NCBI GenBank assembly: GCA_016786585.1 | Contig: JAEUUI010000012.1 | Coordinates: forward strand, 1-64,000 | Direction: 5' to 3' | DNA length: 64,000 nucleotides | Source: Cyclobacteriaceae bacterium | Lineage (GTDB): Bacteria > Bacteroidota > Bacteroidia > Cytophagales > Cyclobacteriaceae | In this document: positions 30,088 through 38,959 of the stretch, piece after piece | Layout: every line of letters starts with the position of its first letter | How positions within the stretch are numbered: position 1 is the stretch's first letter | Program-made: the position numbers and the translations under genes | The notes under the pieces: generated by a model | Databases searched by the model: none | What the model was told of the DNA's origin: nothing | The model's input: the letters and a program-made list of their open reading frames with translations, nothing else

Positions 30088-32019
30088 CTATTCCGGCAAA
30101 TCAATAATGAACTTCGCGCCTTTGCCCTCAACGCCTTCTGCACGGATGGTTCCTCCATGCCGGTCGACAATCTTTCGGCATAATGCCAATCCAAGTCCTG
30201 TGCCTTCATAACGGTCCCTGGAATGAAGTCGCACAAATGTTTTGAATATTTCCTCCGAATGACCTGCCGGGAATCCGATGCCGTTATCGTTCAATGTAAT
30301 CCGGATAAACGACTTGCCCCCAGACGAGTCAGACGCGGGGGAGTAAGGGATGCGCTCGGTGGTTATGTTGATAACGGGTGTTACTTCAGGCGTGACGAAT
30401 TTCAGTGAGTTACTGATCAGATTATAAAATAGTTGGTAGATCAGAATGGGTGTTCCGGTTAAAGGGAGCAAATCGCGATACGTAAAGTGAGCCTTCGACT
30501 CAACGATCAACAGTTCGAGATCTTCTTTGATTTTCGACAACAGGTCTTCAAAATCAATTCTTTCGTTTTCAATTCGCGAGCTGTCGATGCGGGCGAAATC
30601 CAGCACTCCGTTTATCATGGCCTGCATCCGGTTGGACGCCCGGTCTATCCGATCAAGATAACTTACCGCCTTTTCAGGTAATTCGTCTTTGAAGTCGTGT
30701 AATAGCCGGTCAACAAAAGTCTTTACTTTTCTGACCGGTTCTTTCAGGTCATGACTTGCCACGTGAGCAAATTGCTGAAGGTCTTCGTTGCTGCGCGCGA
30801 GTTCAAACGTACGTTTCGCCACCAGCGTGTTCAATTGATCTTCCAGGGTTTTCATATCGTGGATGTCAATAAACGCGCCTACCCATTTTACAACTTTACC
30901 CTGATCATCCGTTATGGGTTCTGCCACCGACCGGTGCCAGCGATAGGTATCATGCAAATCTTTTATCCGTACTTCGAATTGAAATGATCGCTGCTCATCT
31001 TTGCCCCGGTTCCATTCCGACTCCGCGCGGTCGCGATCCTGCGGGTGACAACGACTGATCCATCCGGTTTCCAGATCATCACTTCCGAAGTATTCAACCC
31101 ACCGGCTTGACCGGTATTCATGGTTTCCAAAAAAATCGCTTACCCAAACAATTTGCGGAAGGTTCTCCGCGAGCAGGCGAAACTTTTGTTCTTTTTGTCT
31201 GATCGATTCGATCGCGTTGCGTTCTTCCGTGATGTCAATCGTTATACCGGTCAGGATCAAAGGATCACCGTTAGCAGCATAGTCATATCGCCCCAGCGAT
31301 TTCATCCATCGTACTACTCCATCATTGGCCCGCTTAATCCGATAAACTGCTTCGTACTGCTCGCGGGTTTGAAGTGCTTGTGCTACGCGATTAAAAGCTT
31401 CGTCACGGTCTTCCGGGAAAATAACCCGATGCCAGTCTTCGTAGACAAGATTCTGCATCGCAGGATCGTAGCCCCACATTTTTTTATGGTACTCCGACCA
31501 GGTTAACGTTTGTGTTTTCACGTCCAGTTCCCATGTGCCTGCATTTGAGGCTGATGTGGCGAGTTGTAAATGGGCAGAGGTATTTCGGAGTTTCTCAGCT
31601 GCCATTCGTTCTTCGTGGATGTCGACCACCGTGCCGATCATTCCTTCATATTCACCAGTCGCATTGAATTTCGGCCGGCCGGTATCCGCACACCACCGGT
31701 ACTGACCATCCTGACGTTTTAACCGGTAGATAATCCGAAAGCTTTTTCGTGCTGCATTTGCAGCCAGAAATATGTCGGCCGACATTTGTTTGTCCTCAGG
31801 ATGGGTAGCATCAAGCCAACCGTAGCCAAGTGCCTCGTGCTCCTGTTGCCCGGTGAATTCGTACCAGTTTTGGTTCAGGTAGGTGCAATCCCCGGAAGGA
31901 TCTGTGATCCAAACAATCGCAGGTATGGCATCAATTAGATGCCCGAAATTACTTTTGTCATCAACAGCGGATTGCTGAGCGCCCTCCCTCATTGTTTTCT
32001 TCTCGCCTGAATCGCTCAT
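30088..32019 (-). CDS. PAS-domain sensor histidine kinase
   Basis: About 643 residues from the ATG at 32019 (MSDSGEKKTMREG); an ATG at 32061 upstream is also possible. There is no membrane segment, so it is cytoplasmic. Three PAS/PAC modules (roughly 25-150, 150-275, 275-390) each end in a DIHEER-type PAC motif. The kinase core has SHDLKEPVRKV (phosphorylatable His), LFYNLISNSLKF (N box), LNDNGIGFP (G1) and EGTGLGLALCRKI (G2). This SHDLKEP type is common in Bacteroidota and phytochrome-like kinases. No response-regulator output domain is attached; the single-domain regulator at 32135 is the likely partner. Confidence 0.9.
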   Translation of the reverse strand: MSDSGEKKTMREGAQQSAVDDKSNFGHLIDAIPAIVWITDPSGDCTYLNQNWYEFTGQQEHEALGYGWLDATHPEDKQMSADIFLAANAARKSFRIIYRLKRQDGQYRWCADTGRPKFNATGEYEGMIGTVVDIHEERMAAEKLRNTSAHLQLATSASNAGTWELDVKTQTLTWSEYHKKMWGYDPAMQNLVYEDWHRVIFPEDRDEAFNRVAQALQTREQYEAVYRIKRANDGVVRWMKSLGRYDYAANGDPLILTGITIDITEERNAIESIRQKEQKFRLLAENLPQIVWVSDFFGNHEYRSSRWVEYFGSDDLETGWISRCHPQDRDRAESEWNRGKDEQRSFQFEVRIKDLHDTYRWHRSVAEPITDDQGKVVKWVGAFIDIHDMKTLEDQLNTLVAKRTFELARSNEDLQQFAHVASHDLKEPVRKVKTFVDRLLHDFKDELPEKAVSYLDRIDRASNRMQAMINGVLDFARIDSSRIENERIDFEDLLSKIKEDLELLIVESKAHFTYRDLLPLTGTPILIYQLFYNLISNSLKFVTPEVTPVINITTERIPYSPASDSSGGKSFIRITLNDNGIGFPAGHSEEIFKTFVRLHSRDRYEGTGLGLALCRKIVDRHGGTIRAEGVEGKGAKFIIDLPE

Positions 32020-32134
32020 ACTCGTTTTTTTGTGTTGATCACCGTTGGATGAAAAGCGCAAGGCTTTTGGACTTTTACACCGACTATCGTGTTACAGGAT
32101 AACGAAGTAAGTTACCGTTACAGCAATAACCTAG

Positions 32135-32548
32135 CTACACCGCGGCCCCGTCTCCATCAATTATTTTTTTTGTTATATCGGTTAGTACCTGACGGAGCAC
32201 CTTAATTTCAGATGGCTTAGTGATAAATCCCGATGCTCCCAAATCCGCAGATAACTGCTGATCCCGGGCGTGAGACGATGTAGAATACATAAATATCGGT
32301 AGACGTTCTCCGGCTTCTGATTCGCGCAATTGCTTCAGACACTGCCATCCGTCAACACGGGGCATATTGATGTCCAGGAAAACAACATCGGGTGCAAGTG
32401 TTTGGGTGAGTCGAAGCAGGTCACGGCCGTCTTCAACATGTACGAATTTGATTTGGGGAGCGACATCCGCCAACACCGATTCAAAGAACTCGGCATCATC
32501 GAAGTCATCATCTGCGAGAATGATTGTATATTTTTTTTGAGGCTCCAC
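32135..32548 (-). CDS. Single-domain response regulator (Rcp1-like)
   Basis: 137 residues, one receiver domain with no output part. Acidic pocket Asp13-Asp14-Asp15 in ILADDDFDD, phosphoacceptor Asp59 in VVFLDINMPRVDG, Thr/Ser near 90 (YSTSS) and Lys111 in FITKPSE. Such stand-alone regulators pair with PAS or phytochrome kinases, acting as phosphate carriers or binding a partner protein. It lies between two such kinase genes in the same orientation, and either could be its donor. Confidence 0.9.
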   Translation of the reverse strand: MEPQKKYTIILADDDFDDAEFFESVLADVAPQIKFVHVEDGRDLLRLTQTLAPDVVFLDINMPRVDGWQCLKQLRESEAGERLPIFMYSTSSHARDQQLSADLGASGFITKPSEIKVLRQVLTDITKKIIDGDGAAV

Positions 32549-32752
32549 TAAGTTATTGCAGAAGAGGTTAGACTGTGCAAATTAGAGAAATCAGCTCAAA
32601 CCTTTGACAGGAACGTAACCCTTTCCGCAGAATGAAATTGAGTAAGATTTTTCCTTGTTGGTTAGATTTTGATGATTTGAGACGATCGGATGACGATTAA
32701 CAAAAAAGTTGATGTTTATCAATAAAATGAAAATCGAAGACTGGGGTAAGCC

Positions 32753-32774
32753 AAAAAAAGGCCCTTTCAGGCCC
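32753..32774 (-). terminator. Possible terminator after the 32798 kinase
   Basis: On the reverse strand GGCC-tgaaag-GGCC forms a short 4-bp stem (32760-32773) followed by seven T residues (32759-32753). It lies 24 bases past the kinase stop. The stem is short, so confidence is limited. Confidence 0.4.
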
Positions 32775-32797
32775 AATTTTTCAATCTCACGAGAAGA

Positions 32798-34648
32798 TCA
32801 TGAAGGTTGGTTTTTTACTGTTACAACAAACGTACATCCACCTTCCGGTGACGACTCTACACGTATGTTTCCTCCGAGTTTTTCAAGCGTTTCTTTCACA
32901 ACATATAGACCAATACCGGATCCTGCCTGATGATTTGCCAGCCGGAAGAACATCCGGAAGATTTTGTCGTGATACTCGGGGGCGATGCCGATACCGTTAT
33001 CCTCAACCCGGATAATAATGTTGTTACCATCAGCATTTGCTGAAATCCGAATCACCTTTTCCGTTGCATCTTCACGCTGAAATTTGATACTGTTGGAGAT
33101 CAGGTTGTCGATGATGATCCGAAGCCGCTGTTCATCGGAATAGAGCGTCAGCGAGTCATCAATCGTCACGTGAAATTTAATGTCAGAAGCCATGGTCATG
33201 TACCGCAAGCTCTCGATGGAATTCATAACGGTTTCTCGTAACGGGATTGCCGTGCACTCAAGATCAGCCCGGTGGTTGCGCGAATGATTCAGAATGTTCC
33301 AGATAAATTTATCAAGCCGGTTGACGCTGTCGCGGATCATTGTGCAATATTGCGTTGTCTGCGGTTCAGAACTTTCCTGTTCAAGCAAATTCACAAGACC
33401 AAGAATGGAGGTGAGAGGTGAACGTAAATCGTGCGATGCGCTGTATACAAACCGGTCAAGCTCCTGATTGGTTTTTTGAAGTTCGGCATTCTTTTCAAGA
33501 AGTTGTGATTCCGCCTGTTCCCGTTCACGAATGCTGTTCACAAGCCTGAGTTCCGACAGTTTTCGTTCGGTGATATCGCGCCCGTGACACGCGGCACCCA
33601 CAATCTCGTGTGACTTATGAATCGGGCTGAACGAAATTTCCATCCATGACTCGTCTGAACCTTCAGTATGTTCGGTAATCATAAACGTTTCGCCTTCAAA
33701 GGCGCGCTGGTAGGCGGCCTGAAATCGTTTTGCATGTTCTGCCGAATAGGCGTACGACAATACCGGTGACCCGTGTTGAATACTACGACCTGATCGATGA
33801 ATCATATGGCTGAATGGTTCATTGGATGTGATTAACTTGAACGACCGGTCCACACTCCACATCAGGTCGCGTGTGTTATTGATTAAGGCGTCCAGGTTGT
33901 TACGATCGAACTCGCGTTGTTGCTCTGCTGCTTTGCGTTCGGAAATGTCGCGAAAGTTCGATACCATGGCTTCGATGCCCGGTTCATGCAACATATTGGT
34001 AACCGTACCTTCGCACCAGATCCACGAACCGTTTTTATGACGTCTTCGCTGGGTGAAATCAATAAATGCTCCCGGTTTTTTAAGAATATCGTTCCGGTGA
34101 AGCTTAAACGATTTCAAATCGTTGGGGTGAATAAGATCAAACACTGATGTGCCGGCCAATTCCTCCGGTTTATAACCCAGTACTGTATGAATTGCAGGAC
34201 TTGCATACACATAGATACCATCACGCGTAGCAAGCGTTTTCATGTCTTTGCTTTTCTCTATTAATGCGCGAAAACGAGCTTCGTTCTTTTGGACCGTAAC
34301 GACCGATTTCTGTTGCTCGGTCCGGTTGACCGACAGAATCAGAATGTCCTCGGGGATGGGTTGAATGCTGAGATCGAAATATCCGATCGATCCGTCCGGG
34401 AACTTGAACTCGGTTTCAAGGCGGTCGGGAGTGCGTTCGGTCATGCACTTCTTTAATACAGCAAACAAAGGCGTCTGCTCTACACCGGGATATAAATCCA
34501 TGACGAGGTTTCCGACAAGTTGTTGCCGGTTAAACTGGCTATATTCCAGCAACGCATCGTTTACGTACAGATACCGGAAGTCGTAATCGATTACTTGTAC
34601 ACCTTCCAGCAGTGTATCCAGAATTAGGAACCTGGTACTCGGGCTCAT
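32798..34648 (-). CDS. PAS-domain sensor histidine kinase
   Basis: 616 residues, cytoplasmic, no membrane segment. Three PAS modules (about 5-110, 120-240, 245-365), the later two ending in NFRDISERKAAEQ and GRDITERKLSELRL, the typical PAC tails. A coiled coil (370-395) leads into HisKA with SASHDLRSPLTSILG (His406), and the HATPase has IDNLISNSIKFQ, VEDNGIGIAPE and GSGIGLYVVKE. No receiver is fused. The regulator at 32135 could be its phosphate acceptor, since the two are in line on the same strand. Confidence 0.9.
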   Translation of the reverse strand: MSPSTRFLILDTLLEGVQVIDYDFRYLYVNDALLEYSQFNRQQLVGNLVMDLYPGVEQTPLFAVLKKCMTERTPDRLETEFKFPDGSIGYFDLSIQPIPEDILILSVNRTEQQKSVVTVQKNEARFRALIEKSKDMKTLATRDGIYVYASPAIHTVLGYKPEELAGTSVFDLIHPNDLKSFKLHRNDILKKPGAFIDFTQRRRHKNGSWIWCEGTVTNMLHEPGIEAMVSNFRDISERKAAEQQREFDRNNLDALINNTRDLMWSVDRSFKLITSNEPFSHMIHRSGRSIQHGSPVLSYAYSAEHAKRFQAAYQRAFEGETFMITEHTEGSDESWMEISFSPIHKSHEIVGAACHGRDITERKLSELRLVNSIREREQAESQLLEKNAELQKTNQELDRFVYSASHDLRSPLTSILGLVNLLEQESSEPQTTQYCTMIRDSVNRLDKFIWNILNHSRNHRADLECTAIPLRETVMNSIESLRYMTMASDIKFHVTIDDSLTLYSDEQRLRIIIDNLISNSIKFQREDATEKVIRISANADGNNIIIRVEDNGIGIAPEYHDKIFRMFFRLANHQAGSGIGLYVVKETLEKLGGNIRVESSPEGGCTFVVTVKNQPS

Positions 34649-34903: not shown

Positions 34904-37729
34904 CTATGAAGCGGTTTTTGTAAGTACCGTTTTACGGATATCGGCCAGTACTTCGTTCAATACAGTAGCCAGGCGATCGCATAGCTCAAGCGTATTGGCG
35001 TGAACATAACTTGTTTTTTCAAGCGACCGGATGATGTCGTGCAGCATGTCAATTCCTAGATTGTCAATTGCCGGCTTCATCTTATGCGAAACTGATCGTA
35101 CGACATCTGCTTCGCGATCTTCAATAGCTTTTTTGAGTTGTGTGAGCATTAACGGAAGTTCGTGACAAAAAATGCCGACAAATTCCTGCATCACGGCCTT
35201 GTTTCCGTGGCTGAGTTGCTCCAGCTTGGAAAGATCGTAGAGCGCCGGTGTTCGGTTTACACGCATTGCCGGGGTTTGACCCAACACCCGCACGGACCGC
35301 ACCACTTGTCTTATTTTGCTCATCAGGTCTTTTTCATCAAATGGCTTGGTAACGTATCCGTTCATGCCGGCATCCAGGCATTTGTCGATTTCAACCTGAA
35401 AGGCATTCGCAGTCAGGGCGATAATCGGTATGTCAAGTTGCATCTCGTTGCGTATGATTGTGGTCGCTTCGATGCCATCCATTTCAGGCATGTGCAAGTC
35501 CATCAAAACAACATCGTATGTATTTTCTTTTAACAACTTAACAGCTTCCACTCCGGTGTGTGCCTCAAATGTTCTGCACTTGTGAAAGTTCAGGCAGTGA
35601 CGCGCAACCATCCGGTTAAGTTCGCTGTCTTCCACGATCAACACCGAAAAAGGCTCTTCCACTTCTTCGTTGAGTTTTTCATTCACCTCTTCTGATGCCG
35701 ATCGGGTAATAGGCCAATCAAAAACCAGCTCAAAGTGTGTGCCTTTGTTCTTTTCACTCTGCACACGGATCGTTCCGCCCATAAGCTGTACGAGTTCGTA
35801 GGTAATGGCCATCCCAAGTCCGGTACCTCCAAATCTCCTGACGGTGGAATCATCTTCCTGAGAGAATTTTTTAAATATGTTTTGAAGAAATCCGGCTTCC
35901 ATGCCAACGCCCGTATCCCGGATATCAATTTGAACGCGTTGAGAATCAGATGATGTATTCAGTGCGATGCAGCTCACATCGATTTTTCCTTCCAGCGTAA
36001 ATTTGATCGCGTTGCCGATAATGTTGATCAGCACCTGGCGCAGGTGGCCTGAGTCGCCCGCAAGAGAAGGAGCAATTTTTTCATCGATGGAAAGCGTAAA
36101 CTCCAGCATCTTTTCGAACGCAGCAGGCAGCATAATGGCCTGTGTATCCTCCAGTACTTTTCTGAAATTAAAGGGTTGCGACTCCAGCCGGATTTCACCC
36201 GCGGCTATTTTCGATATGTCCAGAATATTGTTCACGATAGAAAGTAAATGTTGTGATGCCGACTGGGCATGATGCAGACAGGTGGTTTGTTGCTCGGTGA
36301 GTGGTGTGCGTTTTAATTCGCGCACCATTCCGATAATGGCATTCAGCGGGGTGCGTATTTCGTGACTCATGTTGGCCAGGAAACTTTCCTTTGCGCGAGA
36401 CGAATCTTCTGCTTTGTTTTTAGCTACCCGAAGTTCTTCTTCCAATAACTTCTGATCAGTAATGTCGAGGTGAATCCCGACCGAGCCGATCAGTTCGCCT
36501 GCATCGTTGTAGTTGGGCGCACCGCTGATGAACCACCAGCGGGGCTGACCGCTTTTACTTTGCGCCTGAATCTCATAGCTGTCGGAAACTCCGCGTTTTC
36601 GCAGCGCTGCTTTTTCTTCGATAATGTCAGTAGCTTTTTCAGCGGCAAATAATTTTGCGGCCTGTTTGCCAATCAGTTCGGCATGCTTGTATCCGGTGAG
36701 TTCACAAAAGGCTTCGTTGGCAAATTGTATTTCATCCTGCAGGTTAACTTCAATCAATCCGAGTTTCATGTTCTCGATAATGCCCCGGTATTTTTCTTCC
36801 TGCGTTTTCAGTTTCCGTTCGTAATTATAGCGTTGCGTTACATCGGTGTATTTCCACAGGTGTCCTTTGTATTCATCAGAAACAAAAATCGGGATGTAGT
36901 CGCGCTCGAACGTGCGCCCGTCTGCGAGTTCGAGTGTTTCTCCGAGCACGAGCTTTTTTCCGGCAAGAATCTGGCCGATACGAGCTACAAATGTTTCCGG
37001 ATCGCGAAACATCATTTTGTTGTCTTCGGCAGCATTTGAACAATCCATGCCTTCGAGTTCCTTTGGAGATGCCGGAATGCCGAACAAATCACAAAACATG
37101 GTATTGCACAATACGATCACCCGATTTTCATCTTCCAGCAATACACCGGTTTGAAGATTCATGATCAGTGACGAAAACCGTTTTTCGGTTTGCAGCAACT
37201 GATATTCACGCTCCCGAAGTTTGAGTTGGTCGCGCTTAAGCAGATTCTTTTGATTATTTATTTTGTCAAGGAGTGTCTTGATTTCGGCATTGGCAATGTC
37301 TTGCGACTTCATGATGTGCAGCAGATCAACTGTCGGATCATGATGTGCAAAATCAGAGAATGAAAGGTTATAATCAATAACTTCATCAACCGAATTGAAC
37401 CACGGAGCACCCACAAAAAGCAATTGGTTATCGGGCATCGACTCAAGTTGTCCGCGTAAGCGAATCTCCGGGCGGGTGACCGACCGGATAATGACCGCCT
37501 GATGCAGTAACGATAGCAGGTTTTGGTCGCTGGGCGGAAGTTGCGGCCGCTCGACTGTAAAAACAGATGAGAACGACTGTGGATCATTCAGGCTTAACAA
37601 CTTTTGAAGTCCCAATCCAAACTCCCTGATCTGGCCGTCACGATTTAACAAAAAGTAAAACGGAAACAGGCTGTTGAATTGCTCTGCCGAAAAAGACAAG
37701 CCCTGCGGGAGTTTAGTTAGCTTATCCAT
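34904..37729 (-). CDS. H-NOX-partner hybrid histidine kinase with receiver and Hpt
   Basis: 941 residues, no membrane segment. In order: an N-terminal H-NOX-associated (HNOBA-like) domain (about 15-140) with FPFYFLLNRDGQIREFGLGL and LRGQLESMPDNQLLFVGAPW, a coiled coil (about 145-180), two PAS domains (185-305, 310-430), HisKA with MSHEIRTPLNAIIG (His456), HATPase with Asn573, DTGVGM (605-610) and FGGTGLGMAI (633-642), a receiver (695-810; Asp744 in LMDLHMPEMDG, Lys795) and an Hpt domain with SHKMKPAIDN (His882). It is a full His-Asp-His phosphorelay chain. It overlaps the H-NOX gene by 13 bases, so the two proteins are probably made together. The final receiver is not encoded in cis. Confidence 0.92.
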   Translation of the reverse strand: MDKLTKLPQGLSFSAEQFNSLFPFYFLLNRDGQIREFGLGLQKLLSLNDPQSFSSVFTVERPQLPPSDQNLLSLLHQAVIIRSVTRPEIRLRGQLESMPDNQLLFVGAPWFNSVDEVIDYNLSFSDFAHHDPTVDLLHIMKSQDIANAEIKTLLDKINNQKNLLKRDQLKLREREYQLLQTEKRFSSLIMNLQTGVLLEDENRVIVLCNTMFCDLFGIPASPKELEGMDCSNAAEDNKMMFRDPETFVARIGQILAGKKLVLGETLELADGRTFERDYIPIFVSDEYKGHLWKYTDVTQRYNYERKLKTQEEKYRGIIENMKLGLIEVNLQDEIQFANEAFCELTGYKHAELIGKQAAKLFAAEKATDIIEEKAALRKRGVSDSYEIQAQSKSGQPRWWFISGAPNYNDAGELIGSVGIHLDITDQKLLEEELRVAKNKAEDSSRAKESFLANMSHEIRTPLNAIIGMVRELKRTPLTEQQTTCLHHAQSASQHLLSIVNNILDISKIAAGEIRLESQPFNFRKVLEDTQAIMLPAAFEKMLEFTLSIDEKIAPSLAGDSGHLRQVLINIIGNAIKFTLEGKIDVSCIALNTSSDSQRVQIDIRDTGVGMEAGFLQNIFKKFSQEDDSTVRRFGGTGLGMAITYELVQLMGGTIRVQSEKNKGTHFELVFDWPITRSASEEVNEKLNEEVEEPFSVLIVEDSELNRMVARHCLNFHKCRTFEAHTGVEAVKLLKENTYDVVLMDLHMPEMDGIEATTIIRNEMQLDIPIIALTANAFQVEIDKCLDAGMNGYVTKPFDEKDLMSKIRQVVRSVRVLGQTPAMRVNRTPALYDLSKLEQLSHGNKAVMQEFVGIFCHELPLMLTQLKKAIEDREADVVRSVSHKMKPAIDNLGIDMLHDIIRSLEKTSYVHANTLELCDRLATVLNEVLADIRKTVLTKTAS

Positions 37730-38265
37730 TGTACCCTGAAAATTTCGTGACTGGCACCGGTGGTTCGACTTTGAAGAAGTTCTACCGTGACCTGTTGTTC
37801 GTATAGTTTGGCAATGCCAAATAAAAGACCGCGCACAAAAGGCTGTAAACCTTCGCGGGCAGATTTATAATGAATGTCGATGGAAGTTTCAGTTTCGTTG
37901 GATGTACTGAAGTCAGGGGGCGTGAGTTTGGGATAAATCAGTACAATGCGATTGTGGAAAACCGGAAGATTGCGAAGAAATTGCGGCATGGTAGAGCCAC
38001 CGGCCTGCAGGAGAGAACCGTATTTCTCGCGGCTCGTCCGCAATACCCACCATTCTCCGAACGCCATTAACACACTTTCCAGGGTCATGCCGGTTTCTTC
38101 AGCAGCGGCTTGTGCGAGCTTGTATGTCACTGAATCATCATACGGCTCGTTGCTGAGAAAGAAGTCGATGTCAACTCCGCTTCGTTCTTTAATGGCATCC
38201 CATTTTTCCTCACCGAAGTTTTCTTTTACCAGGTCTTCGATTGCTTTGTTTACAATGCCATACAT
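37717..38265 (-). CDS. hnoX: H-NOX haem-based nitric-oxide sensor
   Basis: 182 residues, a complete single H-NOX domain beginning MYGIVNKAIEDLV. The proximal haem ligand is His104 in LPVFHNRI, and the YxSxR propionate-binding motif is HYKSAREGL (Tyr133, Ser135, Arg137). At the position of the distal Tyr that lets Thermoanaerobacter H-NOX bind oxygen, the chain reads Gln-Pro-Phe (141-143), so a NO-selective, non-oxygen-binding site is expected (inference). In other bacteria such proteins inhibit or activate a cognate kinase when NO binds haem. Here the kinase is the next gene, overlapping the 3' end by 13 bases. Confidence 0.94.
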   Translation of the reverse strand: MYGIVNKAIEDLVKENFGEEKWDAIKERSGVDIDFFLSNEPYDDSVTYKLAQAAAEETGMTLESVLMAFGEWWVLRTSREKYGSLLQAGGSTMPQFLRNLPVFHNRIVLIYPKLTPPDFSTSNETETSIDIHYKSAREGLQPFVRGLLFGIAKLYEQQVTVELLQSRTTGASHEIFRVQWIS

Positions 38266-38485: not shown

Positions 38486-38959
38486 ATGAATAACTCCTCC
38501 CTGAAGATATTTGTGTTGGATGACGATCTGCTCTATCGAAAGATGCTTGTTTGCTACCTCGAATCATTGGGGCATCAGGTTGCAGGTTTTCAAACTGCCG
38601 ATGAATGTCTCGAAACATTAAATCAGAATCCCGATGTTGTACTGCTCGACCATAACCTGGAAGGTGAGCAAAAAGGCGTAGATGTGCTGCGATACATTAA
38701 GCACGAACGCCCTGATATTGCTGCAATCTATGTTACCGGTGAAGAAAACGTTGCGCTGGTTTCGGATGTGTTTCGATCCGGATCCGAAGATTTCATTGGA
38801 AAAGACAGTGCGAGTTTGTTGCGCCTGAAGCTTAAGCTTGACGATCTGGTAAAACGCAAAACGGATAAAGCGAGTAAGAGCAAACGTACCAAATACATGG
38901 TAATTGGGGGCGCGATGGTGGCAATAGGCTACTTTATCGTCCGGATACTGCTCGGATAA
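38486..38959 (+). CDS. Receiver domain with C-terminal membrane anchor
   Basis: 157 residues. A receiver fold occupies about 5-122: acidic pocket LDDDLLYRK (Asp12-14), phosphoacceptor Asp55 in VVLLDHNLEG, Thr84 in IYVTGE and Lys106 in FIGKDSA. A basic linker (KRKTDKASKSKRTK) leads to one C-terminal hydrophobic helix (137-156, YMVIGGAMVAIGYFIVRILLG). No DNA-binding domain. A tail-anchored receiver is unusual. It is divergent from hnoX, with 220 bases between, and could be the final acceptor of the H-NOX phosphorelay or a membrane-localised phosphate sink; this is inference. Confidence 0.85.
   Translation: MNNSSLKIFVLDDDLLYRKMLVCYLESLGHQVAGFQTADECLETLNQNPDVVLLDHNLEGEQKGVDVLRYIKHERPDIAAIYVTGEENVALVSDVFRSGSEDFIGKDSASLLRLKLKLDDLVKRKTDKASKSKRTKYMVIGGAMVAIGYFIVRILLG

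Follow-up and report, generated by a model that had tools for sequence, protein, structure and literature searches.

An H-NOX sensor gene overlapping an HNOBA hybrid histidine kinase gene in Cyclobacteriaceae, and a kinase arginine lost with H-NOX

The H-NOX gene and the HNOBA kinase gene

The first 64,000 nucleotides of contig JAEUUI010000012.1 from a Cyclobacteriaceae bacterium (assembly GCA_016786585.1), the whole stretch analyzed here and called the window, contain an H-NOX gene that overlaps the gene of a hybrid histidine kinase (Table 1). The H-NOX protein belongs to the Pfam family HNOB and the N-terminus of the kinase to HNOBA, families that were reportedly described by Iyer et al. in 2003. 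Each protein is the only one of its kind found in its genome, by an HNOB search for H-NOX and a profile search for HNOBA. Both open reading frames of the original prediction are present with their overlap, and the residues that it had named for heme binding (H104 and a YxSxR motif made up of Y133, S135, and R137) and for the relay (H456, D744, and H882) are found at the positions claimed. The overlap suggests that translation of the two genes is coupled.

Table 1. Features of the H-NOX and HNOBA kinase locus (positions in the window)
Feature	Position	Strand	Basis
H-NOX (HNOB) heme sensor, 182 residues	37717..38265	-	Pfam HNOB; proximal His104 codon 37954-37956; Y133-S135-R137
HNOBA-PAS-PAS-HisKA-HATPase-REC-Hpt hybrid histidine kinase, 941 residues	34904..37729	-	Pfam domains and relay residues
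H-NOX stop and kinase start, overlapping by 13 bases	37717..37729	-	Open reading frame coordinates
HNOBA and coiled-coil helix, kinase residues 8-178	37196..37708	-	Pfam HNOBA; AlphaFold2; VIA-align
Arg61 codon, counterpart of Arg258 in soluble guanylate cyclase β1	37547..37549	-	Alignment
PAS domain, residues 190-301	36827..37162	-	PAS_7, 26.5 bits, just below the cut-off of 27
PAS domain, residues 312-425	36455..36796	-	Pfam
HisKA, phospho-acceptor His456	36197..36394	-	Pfam, above cut-off
HATPase_c	35717..36058	-	Pfam, above cut-off
Receiver domain, Asp744	35309..35644	-	Pfam Response_reg, above cut-off
Hpt domain, His882	34934..35185	-	Pfam, exactly at cut-off, 24.6 bits
Lone receiver with C-terminal hydrophobic segment	38486..38959	+ (divergent from H-NOX)	Response_reg, 59.4 bits

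The H-NOX protein matches Pfam HNOB at 166.6 bits (cut-off of 25.5) over profile positions 1 to 162 of 163, and both the proximal histidine and the YxSxR heme motif are present. It matches 25 distinct sequences in the PDB, the best of which is Alr2278 from Nostoc (2.9e-51), and its matches to the β1 subunit of soluble guanylate cyclase (sGC, the nitric oxide receptor of humans; 2.5e-27 to 2.8e-24) are far closer than those to the remoter bacterial H-NOX proteins of the PDB (3.1e-8 and weaker). The original prediction placed a proline at the position of the distal tyrosine. This placement is doubtful, as F143 aligns with Met144 of Alr2278, which we take to be the distal-pocket residue equivalent to Tyr140, and P142 just before it is probably one residue off. 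Neither P142 nor F143 is a tyrosine, and so the further claim that this is not an O2-binding H-NOX stands.

The assignment of the kinase N-terminus to HNOBA was confirmed by a Pfam search, which gave 65.3 bits in two stretches (cut-off of 23.4), and matches by fold and in the PDB agree. When a profile built from ten Bacteroidota HNOBA regions is run against the PDB, it finds sGC α1 and β1 along with a kinase domain from Nostoc punctiforme (2p04/2p08), and the top four matches range from 7.2e-18 to 5e-16, those to sGC α1/β1 and 2p04 falling between 7.2e-18 and 9.9e-17. AlphaFold2, given a 45-row alignment of kinase residues 1 to 178, produces a model with a mean predicted local distance difference test score of 91 that ends in a long helix at residues 132 to 177. 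The best 16 Foldseek rows for this model are all sGC chains, with the alpha chain first. VIA-align ranks human sGC β1 at the top (8hbh_B, Z of 16.3, root-mean-square deviation of 5.1, 167 residues; tied with 8hbe_B and 8hbf_B), with the match covering β1 residues 205 to 394. The two Nostoc entries score between 13.9 and 14.0 (2p08, Z of 14.0, deviation of 2.4, 102 residues), and the first PAS domain outside the HNOBA/sGC family reaches a Z of only 9.3. According to the model, the kinase N-terminus is a PAS plus coiled-coil fold of the sGC type. At E up to 1 the kinase has 11 Pfam matches, none of them a cyclase domain, and with no class III nucleotide cyclase domain the protein is like the sensor half of sGC, yet is not an sGC.

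Conserved pairing and the loss of Arg61 with H-NOX

Scanning the genomes of 84,980 species with the HNOBA alignment gave 100 confirmed places, 80 of which were fetched as loci and underlie the locus counts that follow. An H-NOX gene is found in 73 of the 80, directly upstream of the kinase in 72 (from a 53-base overlap to 58 bases apart) and downstream in one (L094), leaving 7 without. As the neighbors are kept in this many relatives, the pairing in the window is not due to chance. No single-chain fusion of H-NOX and HNOBA was seen among the 80 loci. By title, 78 of them are from Bacteroidota. The other two (L096 and L111) are contigs titled as Streptomyces griseus and Bdellovibrio metagenome-assembled genomes (MAGs) that bear H-NOX/HNOBA loci of the Bacteroidota type; their titles look wrong, or the bins look mixed. 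In a sample of 296 Bacteroidota genomes, 22 have H-NOX and 12 have the N-terminal part of HNOBA, counted when the match starts at profile position 2 or 3; 8 of these 12 are directly beside an H-NOX gene. Most of the Pfam HNOBA rows were weak matches to profile positions of about 155 to 216 only, which look like a coiled-coil tail and were excluded as HNOBA. None of the four further genomes that the order sample has from the window's genus matched the HNOBA profile, so the locus is patchy. There was also no HNOBA match on plasmids, where H-NOX is represented only by distant proteins (5 records, 24-26% identity).

Kinases with HNOBA and no H-NOX, termed orphans here, provide a contrast to the paired kinases. 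Eleven orphan genomes were tested first, namely those of the 7 fetched loci, which lack a completeness figure, plus G154, G202, G080, and G138; none of the 11 gave an HNOB match, and two controls did. Retention of the commonest paired residue was then scanned over 185 window columns in 76 paired and 11 orphan HNOBA regions, with column 61 not picked in advance. The column that best separates the two is R61, present in 75/76 paired kinases vs 2/11 orphans (p of 1e-9), and the runners-up are H138 (2.3e-7) and W110 (6.1e-6). In the alignment, R61 corresponds to Arg258 of human sGC β1, to an arginine in the Nostoc kinase, and to a threonine in sGC α1. The reported contact of Arg258 is Asp106 when sGC is at rest and Asp102 when it is active, and these two aspartates lie on the αF helix of H-NOX by the heme ligand His105 (PMC8196705; PMC11201058). 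Heme is described as carried only by the beta H-NOX of sGC (PMC8196705), and α1, with an H-NOX that has no heme, is the subunit with the threonine.

The scan was repeated on a second set, for which 395 class and 390 order genomes were searched with a profile that includes column 61, a slight bias toward arginine-bearing matches, followed by an HNOB search of the 62 genomes with hits. With six loci from previously used genomes and one duplicate removed, this set is made up of 49 paired kinases, 11 orphans, 6 extra copies without an H-NOX of their own, and 2 kinases beside H-NOX remnants. R61 is again the top column, at 40/49 paired vs 0/11 orphans (p of 4.9e-7; next column 3.8e-4); H138 is not strong again, and W110 is weakly repeated (0.006). 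The arginine is absent from all 6 extra copies, in one by a gap, although a nearby contig end may have cut off an H-NOX gene in L198 and L216. The H-NOX remnants lie directly upstream of HNOBA kinases in L212 (about 1055-1500) and L173 (about 1413-1500). Both of these kinases keep the arginine, as expected for a recent loss of H-NOX.

Divergence and kinship were controlled in several ways. When rows are matched by divergence, taken as the share of 23 other conserved sites that is kept, R61 is present in 87/88 paired and 2/9 orphan rows at a share of at least 0.9, in 20/21 vs 0/5 at 0.75-0.9, and in 3/3 vs 0/2 at 0.6-0.75. Among rows with a profile score of at least 80, R61 is found in 110/112 paired vs 2/14 orphan rows. 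A tree was built with column 61 left out from 136 of 155 HNOBA rows; the rows omitted are 17 that score less than 45 bits, of which 12 come from paired kinases, and the two from kinases adjoining H-NOX remnants. On this tree, R61 and H-NOX pairing each need 10 changes, and a Pagel-type likelihood ratio for R61 of 52.1 (at least 43.4 on 20 bootstrap trees) is the top of 28 conserved columns, the next being W110 at 29.0. In a strict set (126 rows, 14 of them orphans), the ratio for R61 is 35.8 (at least 32.9 on 20 bootstrap trees), with the next column at 13.5, and 8 and 9 changes. As the tree is weakly resolved (40/133 inner branches starred), weight is placed on the agreement of these tests and not on one p value.

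Covariation between H-NOX and R61 was examined in 123 of 125 pairs (L038 and L042 were unmatched). Position 105 of H-NOX, just after the heme histidine, carries Asn, Ser, or Asp in 107/113 pairs with R61 and is scattered in the ten pairs without it. It ranks first by mutual information with R61, narrowly, at 0.265 vs 0.262 for position 108. This signal is suggestive only, because the lead is narrow and 7 of the 10 pairs without R61 have a distant HNOBA.

What surrounds the orphan kinases was also surveyed. Upstream of the seven orphan kinases no recurring replacement sensor gene was found; only L106 and L116 share neighbors. In two genomes of a Flavobacterium-like genus (g12), the operons of L036 and L039 keep the genes for a response regulator, the HNOBA kinase, an Hpt-like protein, and a LytTR-like protein with H-NOX missing, and some input other than H-NOX has to drive these kinases.

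Relay domains, candidate acceptors, and neighboring genes

HisKA, HATPase_c, REC, and Hpt domains with their His, Asp, and His residues are all found in the kinase of the window, as expected of a hybrid kinase with an Hpt domain. Several PAS models are above cut-off and report two stretches, and the Hpt domain of the closest relative (L043) scores 29.0 bits. Domain content was compared over 67 loci with complete kinases, those of more than 600 residues, with 13/80 dropped as cut or short; REC and Hpt were called with profiles built from the window's own domains. Both domains are inside the kinase in 19/67, and REC only in 2. The original prediction regarded HNOBA on a hybrid kinase of this kind as uncommon, a view that these counts and the frequency of H-NOX beside HNOBA kinases contradict, as does the Nostoc HNOBA domain already crystallized. 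A separate gene for an Hpt-like protein is present in 41/48 loci without an Hpt domain in the kinase vs 0/19 with one (Fisher 2.7e-11, kinship uncorrected). The window-derived Hpt profile flags 34/42 members of the Hpt-like group; of five members run in Pfam (L033, L035, L036, L037, and L084), three pass, L036 is below cut-off, and L084 has no match, so this exclusion partly rests on similarity within the group. That the relay parts are either fused or encoded by neighboring genes supports a real His-Asp-His relay.

The lone receiver gene upstream of H-NOX encodes a protein without an output domain, which is the nearest candidate to take up the phosphate at the end of a putative relay responding to nitric oxide (NO). 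Its hydrophobic tail may be read as a membrane anchor. The same divergent arrangement, with a product ending in a hydrophobic stretch, is found in L043, a Cyclobacteriaceae MAG (identity to the window of 82% for H-NOX, 71% for the kinase, and 69% for the receiver), and in L045 (65%, 50%, and 46%). This receiver is related, at 25-37% identity, to those of sigma-54 regulators located near H-NOX elsewhere. Among the 80 loci, 12 encode an NtrC-type sigma-54 regulator, and 10 of these regulator genes precede H-NOX in the same orientation. Contig 22 of the window's genome encodes a sigma-54 regulator with 51-58% identity to the ones that relatives have near H-NOX, the 58% being far ahead of the next protein in that genome (at most 43%). 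Its gene overlaps by 4 bases the gene of a 636-residue PAS-HisKA-HATPase-REC-Hpt kinase (L220, 6875-10143). This regulator is not established as a target of the relay, as a PAS-kinase-receiver-Hpt protein of its own follows it.

The common gene order in Flavobacterium is response regulator, H-NOX, HNOBA kinase, FIST protein, kinase, Hpt-like protein, and LytTR regulator. Over all loci, response regulators are neighbors in 51, LytTR regulators in 39, and FIST proteins in 32. Downstream of the HNOBA kinase in the window, on the same strand and 255 bases on (30088-34648), are genes for two PAS histidine kinases and a single-domain response regulator.

The heme motif (H/Y/S/R) is off in 6/129 H-NOX rows, one of which is a remnant; a few genomes are counted twice. 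In L141 (about 965-1500, genome G340), a very divergent H-NOX with H/F/S/I at the motif adjoins an HNOBA kinase with the arginine retained, and this H-NOX may not hold heme in the usual manner. A genome of the window's order (G801, contig 23, 659870-670919, near L172) has three H-NOX genes in about 11 kb. A second class of Bacteroidota H-NOX, mostly with an MKG start, was found in L125 to L135 beside kinases that have no HNOBA by our own profile. These kinases begin with a short, helix-like stretch rich in Arg, Lys, Ala, and Glu, and several of the loci have response regulator, FIST, or Hpt-like neighbors. Perhaps there are two types of adaptor on one relay.

Proposed docking of H-NOX on HNOBA and its relation to soluble guanylate cyclase

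It is fairly probable that the pair is a split, kinase-output form of the sGC sensor half, in which H-NOX contacts HNOBA the way it does within sGC and a phosphorelay is gated by NO. The free H-NOX would bind NO on heme through His104 and would dock on the PAS plus coiled-coil HNOBA N-terminus of the kinase, where Arg61 would pack against the H-NOX helix near the proximal histidine, like Arg258 in sGC β1. Binding of NO would shift the heme helix, the coiled coil behind HNOBA would change, and the kinase would switch. Phosphate would then pass from His456 to Asp744, to His882, and on to an outside receiver, for which the one at 38486 is nearest. Along with heme and NO binding and docking itself, we infer the direction of this effect and its final acceptor. 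The original prediction that HNOBA docks the free H-NOX gains comparative support from the arginine, which is mostly kept with H-NOX and mostly lost without it. This support comes from the fact that the top column of 185, in two sets, falls on the residue with which sGC touches its H-NOX; judging from these alignments, R61 is probably a meeting point of H-NOX and kinase.

Several observations weigh against this reading. The acidic partners in sGC, Asp106 and Asp102, are not conserved and are replaced by Asn105 and Pro101 in the H-NOX of the window, so the chemistry of the contact would differ from that of sGC. The most divergent paired rows lose R61 as well, with 5/10 keeping it at a divergence share of 0.4-0.6 and 0/3 below that, where orphans have 0/2 and 0/10, respectively. 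A strict independent-pairs test finds 4 pairs on supported branches, with 1.8 the same way and 0 opposed on average, too few for significance. Among paired kinases, R61 is missing in L083 of the first set and in 9/49 of the second; seven of the nine are distant HNOBA with a doubtful alignment, and the H-NOX proteins of L157 and L162 have an intact heme motif. Conversely, two orphans keep R61 (L091 and L119, both MAGs with completeness not stated). Low-scoring orphans may also not be true HNOBA.

It is possible, if unlikely, that HNOBA merely dimerizes the kinase, that H-NOX contacts the coiled coil, PAS, or HisKA, and that R61 decays in orphans for another reason. Dimerization through PAS is the role documented for both the Nostoc domain and the sGC PAS, as a review of sGC relates (PMC8196705), and the second Bacteroidota class of H-NOX adjoins kinases without HNOBA, where H-NOX probably acts without it. 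Against this, the top column in both sets is the sGC residue contacting H-NOX, and the kinases with and without HNOBA adjoin different classes of H-NOX, with an MYG start for the former and mostly an MKG start for the latter. It is quite unlikely that H-NOX senses heme redox, CO, or, without heme, a redox state rather than NO while still gating the kinase. His104, the YxSxR motif, and the non-tyrosine distal residues fit the NO-selective class, and the genome encodes a ScdA_N protein, a family that repairs iron-sulfur centers damaged by NO. In favor of another signal, no globin-family protein was found in the window's genome, and a redox response of the heme-free H-NOX of Vibrio cholerae is reported (PMC7108781). 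That the two genes are merely co-transcribed and their proteins never touch is very improbable, for although neighborhood alone is no physical proof and some HNOBA kinases persist in genomes with no H-NOX detected, the co-loss is specific to one residue and both parts are homologous to domains that touch in sGC.

A pair of this kind can be set beside several known systems. Animal sGC has H-NOX, the HNOBA PAS, and the coiled coil in the same order, has the Arg258/Arg61 residue in common through β1, and shares the fold of the HNOBA model (Z of 16.3); it is a single chain with a cyclase there, whereas the window has two proteins and a kinase relay. In Nostoc, the gene of a stand-alone H-NOX of the Alr2278 type is presumably a neighbor of the HNOBA kinase gene, and such a pair, an H-NOX gene beside that of an HNOBA histidine kinase, is what is seen in the window and in the 73 relatives. 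The Nostoc punctiforme entries are likewise the HNOBA PAS of a histidine kinase, and Alr2278 is the closest solved H-NOX. Compared with the crystallized Nostoc domain only, the window differs in being from Bacteroidota, in a kinase with receiver and Hpt domains, and in the conserved divergent receiver alongside. We know of no HNOBA in the kinases HnoK and HqsK. The crystals of the Nostoc domain are credited to Ma 2008 in a later paper (PMC2828450). Proteobacterial H-NOX/HnoK and Vibrio HqsK are described as a stand-alone H-NOX with a kinase or hybrid kinase feeding a relay (PMC8738867, PMC8846402), a feature that they share with the window. The second Bacteroidota class has in common with it the phylum, an H-NOX adjoining a kinase, and, in several loci, similar neighbors, and differs in the short N-terminal stretch that its kinases have in place of HNOBA.

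The pairing of H-NOX with an HNOBA kinase is of a known kind, neither new nor rare. What seems new is the evidence at the level of a residue for docking, that is, the co-loss of the arginine with H-NOX across the aligned kinases. A limited literature search of titles and the beginnings of abstracts, with subscription papers mostly outside it, found no description of the Bacteroidota system or of this co-loss. According to a 2022 review, a high-resolution structure of H-NOX with a partner does not exist (PMC8738867), and a 2021 review of sGC remarks that signal transfer would become clearer with structures of such complexes (PMC8196705). The present comparison names a single residue, Arg61, for mutation, and it offers natural experiments in kinases without any H-NOX, kinases beside H-NOX remnants, and kinases with H-NOX retained. 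It also links the bacterial system with an interaction observed in human sGC, which is targeted by drugs. There is an about even chance that Arg61/Arg258 is an ancient docking and read-out point, shared by bacterial two-protein NO relays and human sGC, that erodes first after the loss of H-NOX in a kinase that is itself retained, with sGC being the fused descendant of a split system. If this is true, the bacterial pairs would be a simple model for the switch in sGC.

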